Assembly (NCBI GenBank): GCA_001632425.1
Contig: KV425663.1
Coordinates: forward strand, 1-60,556
DNA from: Neolentinus lepideus HHB14362 ss-1
Taxonomy: Eukaryota > Basidiomycota > Agaricomycetes > Gloeophyllales > Gloeophyllaceae
Reading direction: 5' to 3'
Length of the DNA: 60,556 nt
In this document: piece by piece, positions 3,864 to 55,679 of the stretch
Position numbering within the stretch: the stretch's first letter is position 1
How the letters are laid out: each line of letters opens with the position of its first letter
Notes under the pieces: model-generated
The model's input: the letters and a program-made list of their open reading frames with translations, nothing else
Told to the model about the DNA's origin: nothing
The model's database searches: none
Translations under genes and position numbers: made by a program

Positions 3864-6789
<2,926 letters not shown>

Positions 6790-38655: not shown

Positions 38656-41600
38656 ATGTCTGCTCTTGGGAAACGGAAAGAGAGGGAAGAAGAGTTCCCA
38701 AAACCCCAAATTCGTGGGTTCGTAAACGTGCCTCAGACTTTAGGATCGTATTGACTTCAGAACATCCAGATCCACACTCTTTGTGTCCAATCTCCCTTAT
38801 ACTGCGACGTCCACAGACCTGCAAACTCTCTTCTCTGATATTGCACCTGTGCGGTCTGCGTTTGTCGTGACTGAACGAGGATCCGGCGTGTCGAAGGGTG
38901 TCGGGTATGTCTCTTTCGCCATCAAAGAGGACGCCAAAGCAGCATTCGAGAAACTATCACAAGAAGGTATCGCCCTTGATGGGAGAAGCTTGAGAGTGTC
39001 ATGGGCGGACAGCAAGGTGCGTGCGTTACTCGCCCTCTTCACCGGCCGTTGCATCAACGTCGTGTGCTAGAACAAACACAAGGACGAGAAAACGGACAAG
39101 ACGGTGAAACCCCGTCCAGAACCTCGGGCACGGCCTGCGCCCTCATCAAGCGAAACCGATCCATTGGCTATCCGTACGATAGTCATTGCAGGCTTGCCTG
39201 CCTCCATCGATTCAAAGTCACTGTGGAAAAAGATCAGGAAATATGACGGGGCGGAGAAAGTTGATTGGCCGTTAAAGCAACAAGATGGATCAGAGGATAC
39301 GACAGGTGGTATGCATGACCTGTCACACTTCCACTACCCATTGGTGTTCTGACCTCTGATTCTGTAATAGCTCACGCGATATTTATAACGCCTGCGGCTG
39401 CTCAAGAGGCGGTCAACAAGCTTCACGCACACGTCTTCAAGGGGTCGCTGTTATCCGTTACTCTTAAGAAACGCCTTGAGGGACTGGCAAAGGCAACTCA
39501 AAAGCGAGGCAAGACAAAATCTGGAGCGCCTGCCATGCCTAGCCGTTCAAGTAGGCTGATTGTGCGCAACCTCCCATTCAATGTCACTGAGCAGGACTTG
39601 CGCGCCGTGTTCCTGCCTTACGGACCTATCTACTCGATCAACATACCAATGTCAGAGGGCGAGCCGCCCCGACCGAAAGGGTTTGCGTTTGTGTGGATGT
39701 TGAGTAAGAAGGACGCGGAGAAGGCAATCGAGGGGTGCAACGGGCAGAAAGTGCGGTCTGGGATGGCGGACGGAATTGTTTCGGATAAGCAAAAGAAGAA
39801 GAAGCAGAGGAGGGAGGAGGAGAAGGCGAGGAACGCTGCAAAGGCGGCTGATGGCGGTGTGGAAGATGATGAGGAGAACGCTGGAGATGAGGACGTTGAG
39901 GAAGAGGAGGACGGGAGGAAGGTGCGGGAGCGAGTGATTGCCGTAGACTGGGCTTTGAGTAAGGATCGGTGGGAAGAGGAGAAGGCAAAGATCGAGGAAG
40001 AGGCGGAGGAGGAAGAGGCTGTCAGCGGAGAGGATTCCGCAAGCGGCTCAGATGAGGACGTACCTCTGGGAGTTCATGAGCACGACAGCGGTGCTAGTGA
40101 CGCTACCGATGAGGATGAGGATGGCTTAGAGGAGGAGATGGACGTCGACGCGCAGAATCCCGCCAAGCCCACACTCCCACCTCCTGAAACTGGCACAACA
40201 CTCTTCATCCCGAACGTACCTTATGAGGCCACAGAAGACGAATTACGAACCCTGTGAGTGAAATTCACCGTTTTGATACACCCTCTCACAGATTCCTGAG
40301 CAGATTCCGTGCCTTTGGTCCCTTGCGATATGCGCGAATAACAATGGACCCTGCCACGGGGCGTACGCGAGGGACGGGGTTCGTCTGTTTCTGGAATAAG
40401 GAAGACGCGGACAAAGCTATCCAGCAAAGTGAAGTTCTTCGTACGGAGACAGCTGGCGATGATGCGATGGTGAGCAGTTGTCATCCTAATTTTCAAGTAA
40501 AATTCAATTTAACAGTTCTCGAAGTCGAAGAAGAATCCCTTCAAGTTCTCCTCGGTTTTGACTCCAGACCCATCCTCCGTCCTGGCTCAGAACTTGGTCA
40601 TTCATGGGCGTACATTAGACGTTATTCGAGCCGTTACGCGGGATGAGGCCACGAAGCTGAAAGAAGTTGGCGAGAAGGCACGGCAGAAGGCGGACAAGCG
40701 TAATATGTACTTGCTCAGGGAAGGGAGTAAGTCTGTCTACTGTGTCCTGCCGCACACCCATGTGACGTCGTCCTGCACCAGTCATATTACCCAACTCGCC
40801 GGCAGCGGAGAATCTCACCACCGCCGAGGTCGAGAAGCGCACAATGTCTTACAATGCCAGGAAGAAGCTCCTGCAATCAAACCCGTCTCTTTATATCTCC
40901 AAGACTCGTCTCAGTATACGGCAAGTACCTCTTTTTGTGACGGAGCGCATGCTACGGAGGCTCGCCACGCACGCCACTCGGGCATTCAACATCGAGTTTC
41001 TGCACGGATCACGTCCTGGGCTGACGGAAGACGAGCTCACGGATCCTGCAGGACGAGAGCCAGCTCACGGCGATGACGAGGGCTCCGAGATAGAAGCTCA
41101 GCCAGCGCCGAAGAAGAGACCACCGAGGAAGAACTCGAAAATAAAGCAAGCTAAAATTGTGCGGCAGTCGGATCGCATCGATCCTGTTACGGGCAAGGGC
41201 CGCAGCAAGGGTTACGGATTCCTCGAGCTTGATACACATGCGAACGCTCTCCGCGTCTTGAGATGGGCAAACAACAATCCTGAAGTGATCAGCCTTTTTC
41301 AGGGGTGGTGGAAGGCCGAGCTCGAGGAACATCTCAAAGGAGAAAAGGCGAAGAGCGAGAAGGAGCGAGAAAAGGGTCGCCAAGAGAAGCTGGAGCAAGA
41401 GCTTGAGAAAGCTCGCTCGCACAACATTAAGTCTCGGGGGACGTTGATCATTGAGTTCTCAATAGAGAATGTTCAGGTGGTGCAACGTCGTGCGGCTCGT
41501 CAGAAGGATTTGAAGCGTGTCGCGGTAAGTGCACCTAAAGACTGATGATGTCAATCGTTGACAACGAAGGTATCATTTTAGGAGGTTGAGGACCGACTAC

Positions 41601-46512: not shown

Positions 46513-48121
46513 TCAATATGAGCGTAGAACTTCGCCATATGTTGGAGGGTCCGAGGAACCCTGATAGACGTACTGGGTGTCGAAAGGATCTAGAGGCTGC
46601 CCGCTTGGAAGTGGGTAAGAATAGTTCCCGAGGCCAGTTTCTCTCGTAGACGAGATAACAGACTCTCGCATCGGCGTATTAGGAGGATGTTCGATTAGTG
46701 GTGCTGTCCTAGGCATTCCCCGGCGACGACAGCGGAAGAACCACAGACCCGCGAGGACTAGACTCAAGACAGCGACACCGCCAACGACACCGCCAACTAT
46801 AGCACCAATAGAACTGTGTTGTGTATACAAGTCAAAATTACCACCTGCAGACGACACTATTCTCAAAAATATTCTCACGTTTTTGGATTTGTGGAATTTG
46901 GTAAATTGGAAGAATGTGTGCCTGCAGCAGTTGGGCTGATAGCTGACGTAGATGTAGACGGAACGACTCTGGAGATTTGAGAGCAAAGAAAATTATGGTA
47001 AGCGCAGGACATTGTCCACCAAGCAACAGTGACATACCTGGCAAGGCCGGCTATCGCATAGTCAATGCCCAAGCAGGTGTAGCTCGATGCCAGGTTGGTG
47101 AGAGTCACGTTATGTAAACCGACTGGAAGCTCGCTTGCAGCATACAGCAGGGTGTCAGCATAAAAGTAATCTTGGTATCCATTCGGAATCTGCGAGATCG
47201 GTTGATCATCAAGCGCGATGGAGTACGAGCCCTGAGAAGGCCCTAGGACTCCGTATATTTGTACCGAGTCTCCTGCGTGAGGATCGTGTTATCATCTTAT
47301 GAAGTAGATTTTCTGTCGTACCCTGCCAGATGGGTCAGTAGATGGACCGATTCGACAAAAGAGGTAATGTACTTGAAATGTGTACACCACCGAGTCTTCA
47401 TTAGAACAGGAGAGGCTGAATGAGGCTTACTAAGTTACTGATACCAGAACGTTGAAAACGCAGTAGTACTTACTGTCCCGAAGTGCCATTGTACTGATTT
47501 TCGTTTGTCACGTTCGTTGACCAGCCAGAGCCCCGCCAGTCGAAAGATGGGTCTGTGTCTTGCACAAGGGTTGTCTGTGTTGACACTGACGTGGTGAATG
47601 TGATCTAAATGCGGTACGTCATACAAAACCGCGAGAGAAAGTGCTAGAGACACCAACGTAGTCTAGATCCAGCCAGATGTTATTTGGAGGAACCGGGGCG
47701 TTGATGAATACGACTGTATGAGATCCCTCTTCCAGCTCTCCAGACCAGTACAGAGGGCCCCAGACACCATTGGGATCATCCGTGGAACAGTTAAAAGAGC
47801 CTTGAAATGTTCCATCCAAGGTGATATTGTAGAATCCGTGATTATACCTGTTGGCTCCGTACAACGTCACCGAGGTGCCATTGAAAGTGAAGGATGCGCT
47901 TGCGGAGTATGTGGAGGTGAGGCTGAAGGTACCACCCATAGAATACCTGAAATGATGGTTAGACAAAGGAGAGGGTCGTTAAGGATAAATCCTTACCTGG
48001 CATAAGCCCCATCCAAGGCAGCATCGGCCGGATTACTAGGGGTACGAAAAACCCATGCCCCGGAAGGTAGGTAGGTAATGAGTGGATTGGGGTTGTCTAT
48101 TGTGACGGTCGTGTTAAACAT
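46513..48121 (-). CDS. Single-span membrane protein C with two beta-sandwich-like domains; contains a 1-nt exon
   Basis: Eight exons (48121-47997, 47946-47658, 47604-47474, 47415-47373, 47322 alone, 47272-47038, 46968-46879, 46813-46513) give 404 residues. The extracellular part has two similar modules, about 43-138 (SASFTFNGTSVTLYGANR, then ITLDG, SGELEEGSHTV) and about 139-275 (VQIYGVLGPSQGSYSIALDD, then ELPVGLHNVTLTN). Each resembles galactose-binding-like sandwiches. Several N-glycosylation sites (NGT, NIT, NVT) occur. A Ser/Thr-rich stalk, a glycine-rich membrane helix (IVGGVVGGVAVLSLVLAG), a CRRR stop-transfer and a Pro-rich cytosolic tail follow. Such proteins are numerous in Agaricomycetes; role unknown. 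No classical signal peptide is seen. The ATG at 48226 lies upstream of the TATA box, so 48121 was chosen. The single base at 47322 supplies the first base of Gly197. Confidence 0.88.
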
Positions 48122-49264: not shown

Positions 49265-51066
49265 ATGTCCCATTCTCCAACTCTAGAAACTCTTTGTGCT
49301 TCGTACCCGTCGCACCATACTCTCTTGACAACATTGCATACCTTTCTGGCCATCACACCACCAACCTTCATCTACATTACCGACCCGTATACTCCTCGTA
49401 TAACGACTCTCGCAATAAAACAGCTTCTCGATTTATTCTCTGAATCAGAACCAGATGAGAAAGCTGTGTATGCGTACGCAAGCATAAACGCCGTTGCAGC
49501 CTTCAGCCCTCGATTGTTCTTCGACACTGCTCTCAATGCGCTGGCGGGGCATTCACCAACGTGGGATAACGCTTGTGCGAACTGGAGTCGCGATGATGGG
49601 ATTAAGTACAATGAGAGCTTGGATGGCTTTCTGTGGGGTATCAAAGAAGTACATGAGCATCTACGATGGAATAGCACGGGTGGAACGGCGAAGAGGGACT
49701 GGAGAAAAGGGAGAGCAAGGGAAGAAGATGGGATGCAGGTGAAGATGATACTTGTGGTGGAAAGGTCTGAGCGACTGCTGCCTGACCTCGTCGTTCCACT
49801 GACCAAACTAGCCGAACTCGTGAGTGTCGAGATCTTTCGCTCTCGGACGTCATAAGTTTCACTACATGCTACCAATTGTAGACACAAACTCCAGTAACGA
49901 CCATCCTGATATCCTCGCTTCCTTGGTGCGACACAAAACCCTTGCTCGGAGCCGCACCTGATCCGTTCTACATCTCTGTCGGCTCACCCAGCAAAGAAGG
50001 TCCGTTGGTTTCTTTCATGTCCCGATTGTTTACTGACAACACGCATAGCAACCTTGCAAATTTTGTCTACCTCCCTCCCCTTCGTCTCGCCCTCTAGCTC
50101 TGATACAGGCATCCTCTCGAGAATATCTACAGAGAGCATCCAATCATTACGCGTGCCGTATCTCTCGACGCTCCACTCCGTCTGCGGGCCTTTCGTGTCC
50201 GACCCAGACGAGCTCTCCTATATCGGTGCTGTTTTATGGCTCACCTTCCTTGACGAACTGGCTCGGCTCTCGACAGAGGACAACACAGTTTACGAGGAAG
50301 AAGAAGGCGAGCTTGACATCACTGAGGAACTGAAGATGCGGCTTCTCCGTGCATTCACGCCGAAATTTCACGAGGCGCTGGACGTGCTGTACCCGCGGCT
50401 CGGATCCGCGGTGGACTTCCTTGTTTCCGCGTCCTCCTCGCAAACCGTTTCGACTCTTGATTTAACGCGAACGGAGAAGTACGTTGTGATAGCATCGTAT
50501 CTGGCCTCGACCAACCCCGTCAAGAGCGATATGCGGATGGTATACCGCGGCTCGGAGGGTGAGCGGAAGAAGCGGAGAAGGCGGAAGTCGAGTATATTGA
50601 CTAGTCCCAGAAAGGGGAAGGATGGGGCGGCGGTGAAGGTGCGACGCTGACTCTTCGCCGTTCTCAGTGTTCTTACGACAGTGTATTTTTTTGCATTTTC
50701 AAGATCCCGCAGCGCCTCCTGGGCCCGACGACGTTCCCGCTTGACCGGATGCTTGCTATACTAGGTAACTTGATGGTCGAGCATGAGGAGGAGCTAGACT
50801 TTCGTGATGAGGAGACGAGAGAGCGCGCTGCCGAGGTCGAGGTAGGCCGGGTGGGACTGCTGTGCGCGGTAAGAACGATGTCTCCGACTCATCATCCAGC
50901 CTGCATATCTCTGAACATGTCTGTGCAGATCACGAGTCTCACGCAGGCGCACCTACTAACTGGTGTATGGCCCACCTACAAGTGTGCAGTTGGGTATGAC
51001 GTCGTTCTCGGGTTAGCGCACGACATGGGGGTCAGTCTGGGTGAGAGAGTCTGGGATGCAGCTTGA
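49265..51066 (+). CDS. ORC5: Origin recognition complex subunit 5
   Basis: Five exons (49265-49819, 49882-49999, 50049-50638, 50704-50868, 50929-51066) give 521 residues. ORC5 is part of the six-subunit complex that marks replication origins and loads the MCM helicase. The best evidence is the C-terminal part: a basic linker (ERKKRRRRKSS), the block IPQRLLGPTTFPLDRMLAIL (20 residues), then ITSLTQAHLLTG and a winged-helix end (YKCAVGYDVVLGLAHDMGV). In the N-terminal AAA+ part the Walker B-like stretch MILVVERSERL (about 160-170) is seen, but the place of the Walker A loop (about residues 33-45, FIYITDPYTPRIT) lacks the GxxGxGK[ST] signature. All introns are 49-65 nt with GT-AG ends. Confidence 0.92.
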
Positions 51067-51633
51067 TAGATCTGCCCAGTGGCAACAGGTATATGGGAGA
51101 CATGTACGTTTTGCATTAGTGTTGCCTGGTTACTGTGTGGAAGTAGTTCACGGGTATGTGCCAGGACGGAACACACGTTGTGCATTACTTCCACTCAGAA
51201 ATGGAGTTATGCATGATTTTCGAATTGAGTGTCGTGAATGGATAATAGTTATATCTCTGTCTTAGAGCCAATGCTATGTTCTAATTTTCAATCTACTAGC
51301 TTCGGAAACACTGCGACGGTGGAACCGATTCCTCTCTGTTCCCATTAAGGCGCTGGGTTCAATGTGAGTGAATTATTTTCAATACAGTGTGGCGGTGGGT
51401 TTATTCATCTTCCCCTCCCCAAGGCTATTGATAGCAGATGCGGTACTCATCGATTTCAGCAGATGACCGCAGAAGTACAAGGAGAGCCTCAATATAGACT
51501 CGGGATGTAATGTGTTCCACTGCTTCCATTGGAGCGCTGTTAGTCTCCATGCCCATCTCGCTACAAAACTTAACTTTGGACTTTCTGTGTGTCATCCGAG
51601 CGAAACCGATCTTTAGGGAGGTTCAAGAGTACG
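51067..51633. other. Intergenic between ORC5 and the pseudogene
   Basis: 567 bp with no recognised gene. The start of the C-like pseudogene follows at 51634. Confidence 0.45.
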
Positions 51634-52890
51634 ATGGACCAGAATACTTTGATAGATAACTCGAGTCCCCTAATCACCTCCTTACCGGCGGGCGTATAGT
51701 AATTCCGGACTCCTAGCATCCGCATTGATGCTGGGAAGGATGCGCAATACAGCAGGTGAGAACTCAGTAATCAACTCAAGTTTATTTCTGCTTTATTCTA
51801 TCAGTATTCTAGGTATTCCCTAGGAGGTACCTTCACTGTTACAAGAATTTCCGACGCAAGCGCATTCTCCACTTTCAACGGCACGCAGTGACACTACGGT
51901 GCCCATAGGCAGGATCATGATTCTAACATCACGTTGAACGGAATACTTGAAGGCTCTTTCAACAGCTCCGCGAATGAACCCATTAGTGTCTGGAGCGTAC
52001 TCTATTGGTCCGGTCCGTTAAACGATGGGCCTCATACCGTCGTCTTATCCAACAGTAACAATGACGGACTATCACTGGATCTCTTTAACGGCATGGCGCC
52101 CTGTGCCTAGATCACCTTCACCACACTAGTGTCAACGCAGGTAGACCTTGTACAAGAAAACGATCATGCCTTTGCCTACTGGGGCACTGGCTGGTGAAGA
52201 ACTGTTGCAAACCAAGATCAGGACAATATTAGGACTCCCGAACACTGAGTGCCTGCGAAACACCACTGGTGCTCGCGACTTATTGTGATATTCACAGTAT
52301 CTTCTGTACTGCTCAAGACTCGGCGATATACACATCCTAAGTGTGTCTTCCTTGTTTTCTTCCATCCTTCGACTAAACCGTTCGGTAGGGTAGTGGGGAT
52401 ATCGATCTGTTTGAGACAATGTCACGATTCCTACGTAGGAGACTCTATACCAATATAATGGAATCCCAGGGCCTAATCAAGGTTCGCACTTCGTGTCGCT
52501 CGACGGGCATTTGATTTCGACAACTCTTGATGTACATCAAGATTACTTCTACGCCGACACCAAGTTATACTATCTTCCTGCGGATCGACACAATTTGTCT
52601 CTCACCAAGCAATCTCCGAACAATAGCTGTTTATCTGCTGACTATGCGATAGCTGGCCAAGCGGAGTGCGTTCACTCTTCGGGTTCGACCATATCTGAGA
52701 GCTGATCTTGGTTCCTCTCCGTATTTACCAGTGTTGTCTCCTACGGGAATTGCGTCATGATTACATTCATTGCTTTCGTCTGCGACATAGCTCTGCCGCT
52801 GTAGACGGTGGTTCTGTCGTGGGTGCGGCTGCCGCCGCTATACTCGTTAGAGGGCTATTCGTCTTCCATGGTCGACATCAACGCCCGGCG
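51634..52890 (+). pseudogene. Decayed third copy of the C/D membrane protein gene
   Basis: On the strand opposite to C and D, the whole gene can be followed in degenerate form: MDQNTLIDNSSPLIT at the start, YSLGGTFTV, FNGT, NITLNGILEGSFNSS, VLYWSGPLNDGPHTVV, ITFTTLVSTQ, DYFYADTKLYY, LSADYAIAGQAE, and a membrane-helix remnant near 52815-52855. Breaks: two adjacent stops at 51697-51702 in place of Trp-Ser, a stop at 51899-51901, another after YWGTGW, a changed splice donor after exon 3 (CT for GT), CAA to TAA at the end of exon 4, and a frameshift in exon 6. The unusual AG-G-GT arrangement around a one-base exon is still present (52389). The C-terminal tail is no longer alignable, so the end is approximate. 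Confidence 0.88.
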
Positions 52891-53981
52891 AAACTACATA
52901 GTCTAGCGGACCATTCTGCCCTTGGCCAGAATAGTGAAACCAACGACCCTTCCACACATTCCGACCAGACTTCCGGTCAGGGACCCCCCATTGATGGACA
53001 ACCTGCTGTCCAGCGATCGCTGTCCCCAGCACAACAAGTACGGCATGATTTAGTACTCTGGAACCATTGTCACAGCTCCTTTATCTGCGTGTTCTCATAT
53101 TCCAAGGACATGCATGCAATGCCATGCTTGTTATAGAGTATTGACCAATGGATGACAGGGGGAGGTTACGAGTTTGTTCTTTCAGTCTTCTTCTCCTCCA
53201 CCAAGATTTCGTTGATGTTCTTACAGACTTACTTGTGCCAGATCTACCTAGATCACCGCCCGGCGGTGTCTACCGTCTCTTCTCCTGTCTTCCCAATGAA
53301 GATGGCCTACTACGTGGCGATTCTTCCACGCTAGGAAATACATTGGTCAAAGTAATACCAGCGCGCATGAACAATCTCCCATGCTCGAATTCGAACCTGC
53401 AGCCGGCCAGTCGAGGGATGGCCTCGATCACCAACGCTGTGTTGAGAAATATTCTGACTTATTAATGAAGTCGTGTTTCCCCATTGACGTATAAGGCTGA
53501 GCACGTTACGTGTGAGTATTACATTCTGTGGCCTTCGCCTTGATTCTCTGGTCCCTTGTCAATGATCTCACCGGTCCCATCGACACCCTGTTTCTGGATT
53601 CTGAGGACGATCAGAACTACTACCGTCCTATTCAGGTCAAGGCCGGGTCCGGACATAGTGAATTATCTTCGCTACTGTTGCAAGGTCAGATCTTCCGTGT
53701 GACTCACATTCACTTCCTCTGGTCGCATTAAAGAGAAAAGTGAACAACCGCCGCTACCGTTCAGCTAAGTTCGACTGAGGATGATTCCGACATAGGCAGT
53801 ATATCTCGCGACTTCTGAATTGGCTCGTTCCAACAAACTGCCGACACCGCTCGCTTGTTCTCGCAGGCGGGACAACTTCCCTCTAATCCCATGTAGTACC
53901 TCGACAAAGCCTACAGTGCACGAATGCCAGTACTCGACACGTATTACCGTAGGGTAACTGTAGCATGGGGTATATCGCGTG
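52891..53981. other. Spacer between pseudogene and gene D
   Basis: 1.1 kb. Frames at 53148-53465 (106 codons, +) and 53528-53731 show no domain. At about 53912-53965 the sequence matches the 3-prime end of the DUF262 gene (46350-46397 and just beyond), marking the left end of duplication copy 2. Confidence 0.45.
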
Positions 53982-55679
53982 TTAATAATCGTTTGGATGT
54001 AGCCTGTTTGGTTCAAGCCTATAGGGTACATCTCCGGCTGTGTAAGACGTCGAGGTCAACATAAGCCCAGAACTTGCGTGATATGTTGAAGGGTCCGAGT
54101 AGCCCTCATAGGCATGCTGGGAGTCGAGAGAATCTAGAGGCTGCCCAGCAAGTGGGTTTGGAAGTAGGAAAGAATAGTTCGCGAGGTCAGTTTCTCTCGA
54201 AGACGAGATAATAGACTCTCGCATGGGCGTATAAGGAGGAGGTTCGATGAGTGGTGCCGTCCTACGCATTCCCCGGCGACGACAGAGGAAGAACCACAGA
54301 CTCGCGAGCACTAGACTCAAGACAGCGACACCTGCCACGACACCACCGACTATAGCACCAGTAGAGCTGTGTTGTGTATACGTGTCAAAATTACCACCTG
54401 CAGACGACGCTATTCTTTAAAAAGTACTCACGTTTTTGTATTCGTGGAACTTGGTAAATTGGAAGCAGAATGCGTGGATGCAGCAGTCGGACTCATAGCT
54501 GACGTAGATGTAGACGACACGACACTGGAGAGTTGAGATCAAAAGAAATTATGGTAAGCGCAGGACATTGTCCACCAAGCAACAGTGACATACGTGGCAA
54601 GGCCGGCTATCGCATAGTCAATGCCCAAGCAGGTGTAGCTCGATGCCAGGTTGGTGAGAGTCACGTTATGTAAACCGACTGGAAGCTCGCTTGCAGCATA
54701 CAGCAGGGTGTCAGCATAAAAATAATCTTGGTTTCCATTCGGTATCTGCGAGATTGACTGGTTATCAAGCGAGATAGAGTACGAGCCCTGAGAAGGCCCT
54801 AGGACTCCGTATATTTGTACCGAGTCTCCTGTGTGAGGATTGTGTTATCATCTTGTGAAGTAGATTTTCTGTCGTACCCTGCCAGATGGGTCAGTGGATG
54901 GACCGATTCGACCAAAAGAGGTAACGTACTTGAAATGTGTACACCACTGAGTCTTCGTTCGAACAGGAGAGGCTAAATGAGGCTTACTAAGTCATTGGTA
55001 CCAGAACGCTGAAAACGCGGAGGTACTTACTGTCCCGAAGTTCCATTGTACTGATTTTCATTTGCCACGTTCTTTGACCAGCCAGAGCCCTGCCAATGGA
55101 AAGATGGGTCTGTGTCTTGCACCAGGGTTGTCTGCGTTGACACTGACGTAGTGAATGTGATCTAAATGCGATACGTCATACAAAACCGCTAGAGAAAGTG
55201 CTAGAGACACCAACGTAGTCTAAATCCAGCCAATTGTTATTTGAACCAGTTGGGACGTTGGTTATTACGACTGTATGAGGTCCCTCCTCCAGCTCGCCCG
55301 ACCAGTACAGAGAGCCCCAGACGCCAATTGGATTATCCGTGGAGCCGTTGTAAGAGCCTTGAGATATTCCATCCAACGTGATATTGTAAAACCCGTGATT
55401 CTGCCTGTTAGCACCATACAACGTCACCGAGGTGCCATTGAAAGTGAAGGATGCGCTTGCGGAGTATGTGGTGGTGACGGTGAAGGTACCACCCATAGAA
55501 TACCTGAAATAATGATTTAGACAAAACCGAAGGCAGTTAAGGATGAATCCTTACCTGGCATACTGCTGATCCATACCAGCATCGGCCGGATTACTAGGGG
55601 TACGGAAACTCCATGCCCCGGAAGGTAAGTAGGTGATGAGTGGATTGGGGTTGTCGATTAGAGTGGTCGTATTGGACAT
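53982..55679 (-). CDS. Single-span membrane protein D, paralogue of C; contains a 1-nt exon
   Basis: Eight exons (55679-55555, 55503-55215, 55161-55031, 54972-54930, 54878 alone, 54828-54594, 54524-54432, 54366-53982) give 433 residues. Exons 1-6 have exactly the lengths of gene C (125, 289, 131, 43, 1, 235). The two beta-sandwich-like modules, Ser/Thr stalk, membrane helix (VAGVAVLSLVLASLWFF) and CRRR follow as in C. The cytosolic tail is 28 codons longer: the TGA that ends C is lost by local changes and translation runs on into SGLMLTSTSYTAGD. Amino-acid differences from C are spread through the ectodomain, while many third-position changes are silent, so the copy looks under constraint. 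TATA box at 55759-55765. Confidence 0.88.

Follow-up and report, generated by a model that had tools for sequence, protein, structure and literature searches.

Gene C lies on the minus strand of a 60,556-nt window, which is the whole stretch of DNA analyzed here and makes up contig C113 of a genome of 33.8 Mb in 168 contigs. The gene raises the question of how a reading frame is carried across the interval between exon 4, which ends ...GTGTACACATTTCAA, and the next block of coding sequence (exon 6), which begins GAGACTCGGTACAAATA. A preliminary description of this DNA had proposed that a single G is kept there as an exon of its own, between two short introns. Exon borders outside this interval were placed by eye and then checked by translation, and all features are collected in Table 1.

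Table 1. Window coordinates of gene C, its paralogue D and the decayed third copy
Feature	Position	Strand	Remarks
Gene C exon 1	47997..48121	-	Start ATG at 48121; splice model by eye, checked by translation; start codon set by comparison with D
Gene C exon 2	47625..47946	-	First domain; CE2_N match below Pfam's cut-off
Gene C exon 3	47474..47574	-	Splice model checked by translation
Gene C exon 4	47373..47415	-	Ends ...VVYTFQ, phase 0; register as in the C3 relative
Intron a	47323..47372	-	GTACAT...CTGAC...GGCAG, 50 nt
Predicted one-nucleotide exon of gene C	47322..47322	-	G, first base of Gly codon GGA; basis: frame, conservation in three copies, intronless relative
Intron b	47273..47321	-	GTACGA...CGCAG, 49 nt; interrupts the Gly codon in phase 1; the C5 relative has an intron at this position in each of its two domains
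Gene C exon 6	47038..47272	-	Remainder of second domain
Gene C exon 7	46879..46968	-	Splice model checked by translation
Gene C exon 8	46513..46813	-	Hydrophobic segment and tail; stop TGA 46515-46513
Paralogue D	53982..55679	-	Open throughout
Predicted one-nucleotide exon (G) of paralogue D	54878..54878	-	Introns on either side: 54929-54879 (51 nt), 54877-54829 (49 nt)
Third copy, decayed (pseudogene)	51630..53000 (approximate limits)	+	Between C and D, in opposite orientation
Lone G of third copy	52389..52389	+	Intron-like stretches on either side: 52341-52388 (48 nt), 52390-52438 (49 nt)

Gene C probably encodes a single-pass membrane protein that carries two β-sandwich, carbohydrate-binding-like domains, an assignment of fold and function that is weakly supported. 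The hydrophobic segment (IGAIVGGVVGGVAVLSLVL) has a mean hydropathy of 2.44. A sequence search against solved structures returned no match at E values up to 0.1, and a structure model of domain 1, built from two sequences, is of low confidence (mean pLDDT 58.9) and too weak for a fold search. The other introns of gene C measure 50 to 69 nt. Two acceptors, spaced 11 nt from each other, are candidates for the end of intron 2 in both C and D (window 47593-47575, minus strand), namely CACGTCAG and either CAACACAG (C) or CAACGCAG (D); with the donor as used, the second alone preserves the frame. Neighbors of the gene cluster on the plus strand include open reading frames with a match to the ORC5 C terminus (49910-50650) and with an RRM domain (39319-40257). 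Elsewhere in the window, the plus-strand frame 4796-6013 encodes N-acetylglutamate synthase NAT and semialdehyde dehydrogenase domains, a combination like that of a fungal Arg5,6-type protein.

The letters and coordinates of the interval agree with the proposal, dividing into introns of the expected lengths around the G. Exon 4 does end in phase 0 after VYTFQ, in the register of a related gene (the C3 relative), and splicing with the G retained yields the proposed GGA glycine codon and the order VVYTFQ-G-DSVQIYGVLG. The protein then reads ...NEDSVVYTFQGDSVQIYGVLGPSQGS..., and its frame stays open through the hydrophobic segment to the stop codon. Omitting the G produces the early stop that had been foreseen: after the Q of VYTFQ, nine further residues (ETRYKYTES) are followed by a stop.

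We enumerated all single joins with a GT or GC donor and an AG acceptor in or after the interval that span at least 35 nt and restore the downstream frame without a stop, and found 31 in C and 24 in D. Both flanking blocks (VVYTFQ and SVQIYG) are kept by five of these joins in C (GT-AG introns of 75, 78, and 87 nt; GC-AG introns of 54 and 57 nt) and by two in D (GT-AG introns of 97 and 100 nt); when DSVQIYG is required, four remain in C and one in D. Gene C alone therefore has in-frame single joins, with 7 to 15 extra residues, plus the 87-nt join, and the earlier statement that no single GT-AG intron serves this gene was too strong. The whole of GDSVQIYG is preserved in C only by the 75-nt join (8 extra residues) and the 54-nt join (15 extra residues), and neither join in D keeps GDSV. 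None of the enumerated block-preserving joins is common to C and D, since intron a is one base longer in D, and D also contains a donor absent from C. Joins that the two genes do share (n = 11) each delete 14 to 68 residues. On this enumeration, single introns would be ruled out for C and D jointly but not for C alone.

A corresponding search for pairs of GT-AG introns, each of at least 40 nt and with the last acceptor within 190 nt of the start of exon 4, gave 13 joins in C and 13 in D, with an identical lone G in all of them. Exactly one of the 13 in each gene yields VVYTFQGDSVQIYG. No other canonical join tried gives VVYTFQGDSVQIYG, and this holds for each of the two intact copies, which supports the reading of the G as a one-base exon.

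Paralogue D is approximately 94% identical to C in the query region, and two such close relatives do not count as independent witnesses when they agree. In the third copy, the intron-like stretches match those of C at only 26 of 47 positions for a and 26 of 49 for b. This copy has an in-frame stop within the match to exon 2, a TAA in place of the codon preceding the first intron of the pair, and an extra base shortly after the start of exon 6. It nevertheless reads TAA/GTGTGT...GGTAG/G/GTAGTG...CGTAG/GAG, so that the four GT and AG sites and the lone G are unchanged in all three copies; the donor GT of its intron 3 has been lost while the sites around the lone G are intact. The retention of these sites and of the G in C, D, and the third copy indicates that the layout predates the split of the three. 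As features of a pseudogene, the sites in the third copy show history and not use. A one-base indel close to the end sets apart the tails of C (46513-46545) and D (53982-54085), both on the minus strand: beyond ...TY there are 7 further residues in C (GEVLRSY) and 32 in D. Judged by the end of the C3 relative (PPGYDEAVHR), that of C (PPTYGEVLRSY) looks closer than that of D to the older tail.

The C3 relative, which is 48% identical to C over exon 6 and has an intron at the place of C's intron 3 (its acceptor chosen by frame), supplies an external marker of length. It is uninterrupted at the site of the lone G, where it reads NASTGHITCLGGGTAFYIFQGDAVQLYGVVGP against NGTSGHLSCSNEDSVVYTFQGDSVQIYGVLGP, in the same register and with the same length as the spliced protein. 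A canonical GT-AG intron lies on either side of the G, whose immediate neighbors are AG and GT, and this single base is required for the frame and for a conserved residue when C and D are taken together; its layout is conserved in three of three copies of this group in the genome and is absent from the C3 relative, which equals the spliced protein in length. A one-base exon is the best reading of the interval given VVYTFQGDSVQIYG in both intact copies, the sites kept in three copies, and the length of the intronless relative. As a predicted gene structure, the one-base exon in C and D is very probably real.

The motif itself contributes little to this case. An AG-N-GT that leaves two introns of at least 45 nt arose in 149 of 20,000 dinucleotide shuffles of the C interval and 300 of 20,000 of the D interval; among real GT...AG segments of 99 to 101 nt within the window, 74 of 1,443 show this arrangement, and this real-sequence rate is the fairer comparison. 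As an event expected at 1 to 5%, the motif alone proves little, and the weight of the case rests on the frame and on recurrence in three copies.

An alternative is that C and D each splice out a different single canonical intron at the cost of a minor alteration of the protein, with 75 nt removed and 8 residues added in C, and 97 nt removed and VR in place of the glycine in D. Both joins are in frame and free of stops, and the low-confidence model of domain 1 places the homologous glycine with a strand on either side, at a point that could accommodate an inserted loop. However, this would require different joins in copies that are about 94% identical here, neither join matches the intronless C3 relative in length, and the donors (GTCCAT and GTTACC) both lack a G at +5. 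We consider this explanation very unlikely.

A single 99-nt intron with noncanonical ends (TA-AG after CAAG, or GT-CA before GGAGAC) would give an mRNA with letters identical to those from a one-base exon, the lone G being the base at either edge. The lone G, the first base of intron a, and the last base of intron b are all G, so cDNA alone cannot show which G is kept; reads across the AGGGT exon of Fusarium, discussed below, would share this ambiguity. The case thus points to a limit of the usual evidence, since reads of cDNA across an AGGGT site with a lone G do not reveal which of the Gs was retained. Comparison of the copies bears on the choice: the noncanonical ends vary (donor TA in C and D but TG in the third copy; acceptor CA in C and D but TA in the third copy), whereas all four GT and AG sites of the two-intron model are constant, and this contrast favors two introns. 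A length of 97 to 100 nt would also exceed that of the introns called in chaperonin genes (15 introns, 46 to 74 nt) and of the other introns of C. We regard the 99-nt intron as extremely unlikely.

The last alternative is that the frame is truly broken and that the genes are dead or their products truncated. We compared C with D using a Nei-Gojobori script, with Fisher tests on rounded counts. dN/dS was 0.349 upstream of the lone G (32 synonymous and 41 nonsynonymous differences; P = 4e-5), 0.324 in the downstream ectodomain (12.5 synonymous and 12.5 nonsynonymous; P = 0.004); the membrane segment together with the tail gave 0.593. The first two values indicate purifying selection on both sides of the lone G, which argues against dead genes, though not against rival joins that stay in frame. 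In a neutral simulation of the 197 downstream codons (substitutions only, no indels), both copies remained open in 158, 54, and 45 of 3,000 runs at per-lineage distances of 0.08, 0.10, and 0.117. The third copy has decayed to a pseudogene, but in C and D the frame is open to either side of the G, the downstream ectodomain is constrained, and neutral drift since the C-D split leaves both copies open in only these few simulations. We regard a broken frame with dead genes or truncated products as extremely unlikely.

We compared the two introns with others of this genome by surveying chaperonin genes, using 31 of 33 hits (two single-hit genes were left out) and 20 neighboring exon pairs. Fifteen pairs gave an intron and five gave none; called lengths stayed within the range given above, although up to 160 nt was allowed. 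Donors had G at +5 in 14 of the 15 introns, a count biased slightly upward because 3 of the 15 had several candidates and the score preferred consensus donors. CTRAY occurred near the 3' end in 5 of the 15. Intron a has CTGAC near its end and intron b only the looser ATAAC/ATGAT. A +5 G is present in D's donor for intron a (GTACGT) and in the intron b donor (GTACGA); its absence from C's intron a donor (GTACAT) is a point against strong splicing in C.

Together, these observations are best explained by a model in which the pre-mRNAs of C and D carry one exonic G between a pair of conventional spliceosomal introns, each close to 50 nt long, and the retained G becomes the first base of the conserved glycine codon GGA. 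Both introns would be recognized by intron definition, as is expected for introns of about 50 nt (for ascomycetes, see PMC6616335), and would leave consecutively, since the acceptor of a shares bases with the donor context of b (CAG-G-GTA) and the two could hardly be engaged at once; consecutive removal has likewise been argued for APC11 by Guo and Liu (PMC4674806). We lean modestly toward intron a leaving first, since its removal would change the donor context of b from AGG/GTACGA to AAG/GTACGA. Potato invertase, as cited by Guo and Liu, has the opposite splicing order (PMC4674806). A recursive splice site (zero-length exon), at which splicing to AG would directly recreate a GT donor, does not fit, since one base separates the two sites in AG-G-GT.

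One-base exons are rare, as the preliminary description held, but they are not confined to eukaryotes other than fungi, since fungal cases have been published. Reported spliceosomal examples are plant APC11 and VPS55 (PMC8831610), Fusarium CYP621A (Nelson and Syed 2026, PMC12940212), and snoRNA host transcripts of Candida parapsilosis relatives (PMC5033589); mitochondrial one-nucleotide exons are reported from Ophiostoma (PMC12308204) and also from Placozoa. Full-text searches of an open-access library brought up no title or abstract opening that names a one-base exon in Basidiomycota. CYP621A, as described by Nelson and Syed (PMC12940212), is likewise a fungal nuclear protein-coding gene with a lone G in AGGGT that forms part of a conserved glycine codon, an intronless relative that marks the length, and a frame that fails without the lone base. 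It differs in being an ascomycete P450 with SRA-read support, a 139-nt interval in F. graminearum, and a lone base at the center of its codon; C and D belong to a membrane-protein family, have their predicted one-base exon as the first base of the codon between two introns of about 50 nt, and occur as tandem copies with a pseudogene. The Candida-group transcripts share fungal spliceosomal introns one base apart, and alternative orders of consecutive splicing are discussed for them with RNA-seq, but their introns are described as carrying snoRNA clusters, with no reading frame or codon at stake (PMC5033589).

Outside fungi, Arabidopsis APC11 resembles gene C in that one base between two canonical introns restores the frame and intronless relatives exist (in rice), and differs in its lone A, its 422-nt interval, and its proof by base substitution in a reporter (Guo and Liu 2015, PMC4674806). 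The plant APC11 and VPS55 microexons are similarly conserved and missed by annotation, with sister copies lacking the exon, but are conserved across land plants and supported by RNA-seq and RT-PCR (PMC8831610). In Ophiostoma, also a fungus, one exonic base lies between two introns, but these are self-splicing group II mitochondrial introns in rnl and not substrates of the spliceosome (PMC12308204). Stwintrons share with gene C two adjoining short introns removed consecutively by intron definition (PMC5639578, PMC6616335, PMC9024468, PMC12403724). In the [D1,2] stwintron described there, the donor is itself interrupted by the internal intron and nothing exonic is retained, whereas gene C has undamaged donors and acceptors and would retain one base; we rejected a [D1,2] reading of gene C because removing the whole 100 nt breaks the frame and one base must stay.

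The relatives offer some indication of the age of the two introns. A distant relative (L015 600-2100, on contig C5; E = 0.048, 23% identity) has two domains followed by a hydrophobic segment, and in the homologous glycine of domains 1 and 2 it carries phase-1 introns of 55 and 76 nt (borders by eye; VYWF-G-NGIQLFG and LNFS-G-SAITVSG, respectively). These introns match intron b in position and phase, and none in this relative corresponds to intron a (phase 0), so b is possibly old and a new; the glycine-codon intron of the C5 relative may predate the domain duplication. Against an old intron b, the relationship to the C5 relative is weak, and no intron is found here in either domain of the C3 relative or in domain 1 of C and D (the uninterrupted first-domain site reads FTFNGTSVTLYG in C and FTFNGTDVTIFG in the C3 relative). 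A C16 match (E = 2.8e-4), which looks like a different protein and is uninterrupted over the region (FTFTGTGVEWFG), also counts against an ancestral intron. An old b would therefore require losses or parallel gains, and for us the balance tips only slightly toward b being old and a newer.

We rejected the idea that intron a arose as a tandem duplicate of intron b, as their similarity does not exceed chance (score reached by 837 of 2,000 shuffles). Separately, a 9-base word (AGACTCGGT) occurs on the minus strand at 47397-47389 in exon 4 and again at 47271-47263 at the start of exon 6, thus flanking both introns of C; it has one mismatch in exon 4 of D, and in this region the C3 relative reads GGGTAF against EDSVVY in C. 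The repeat could be a trace of intron origin or due to chance.

We suggest, tentatively and at somewhat under even chances, that this is the first basidiomycete one-base exon and that it arose when a new intron a was added one base upstream of an old phase-1 glycine intron b in the ancestor of the three tandem copies, intron b occupying the older family position. The route proposed for Fusarium by Nelson and Syed, in which a boundary base is lost and a cryptic AGGGT rescues the frame (PMC12940212), is also compatible with the data here. If the former history is true, intron gain beside an existing donor, and not base loss and rescue, would be a birth route for one-base exons. This family provides a system for the study of exon origin and the order of intron removal, since a single small genome contains a decayed copy and an intronless relative besides the two intact copies.
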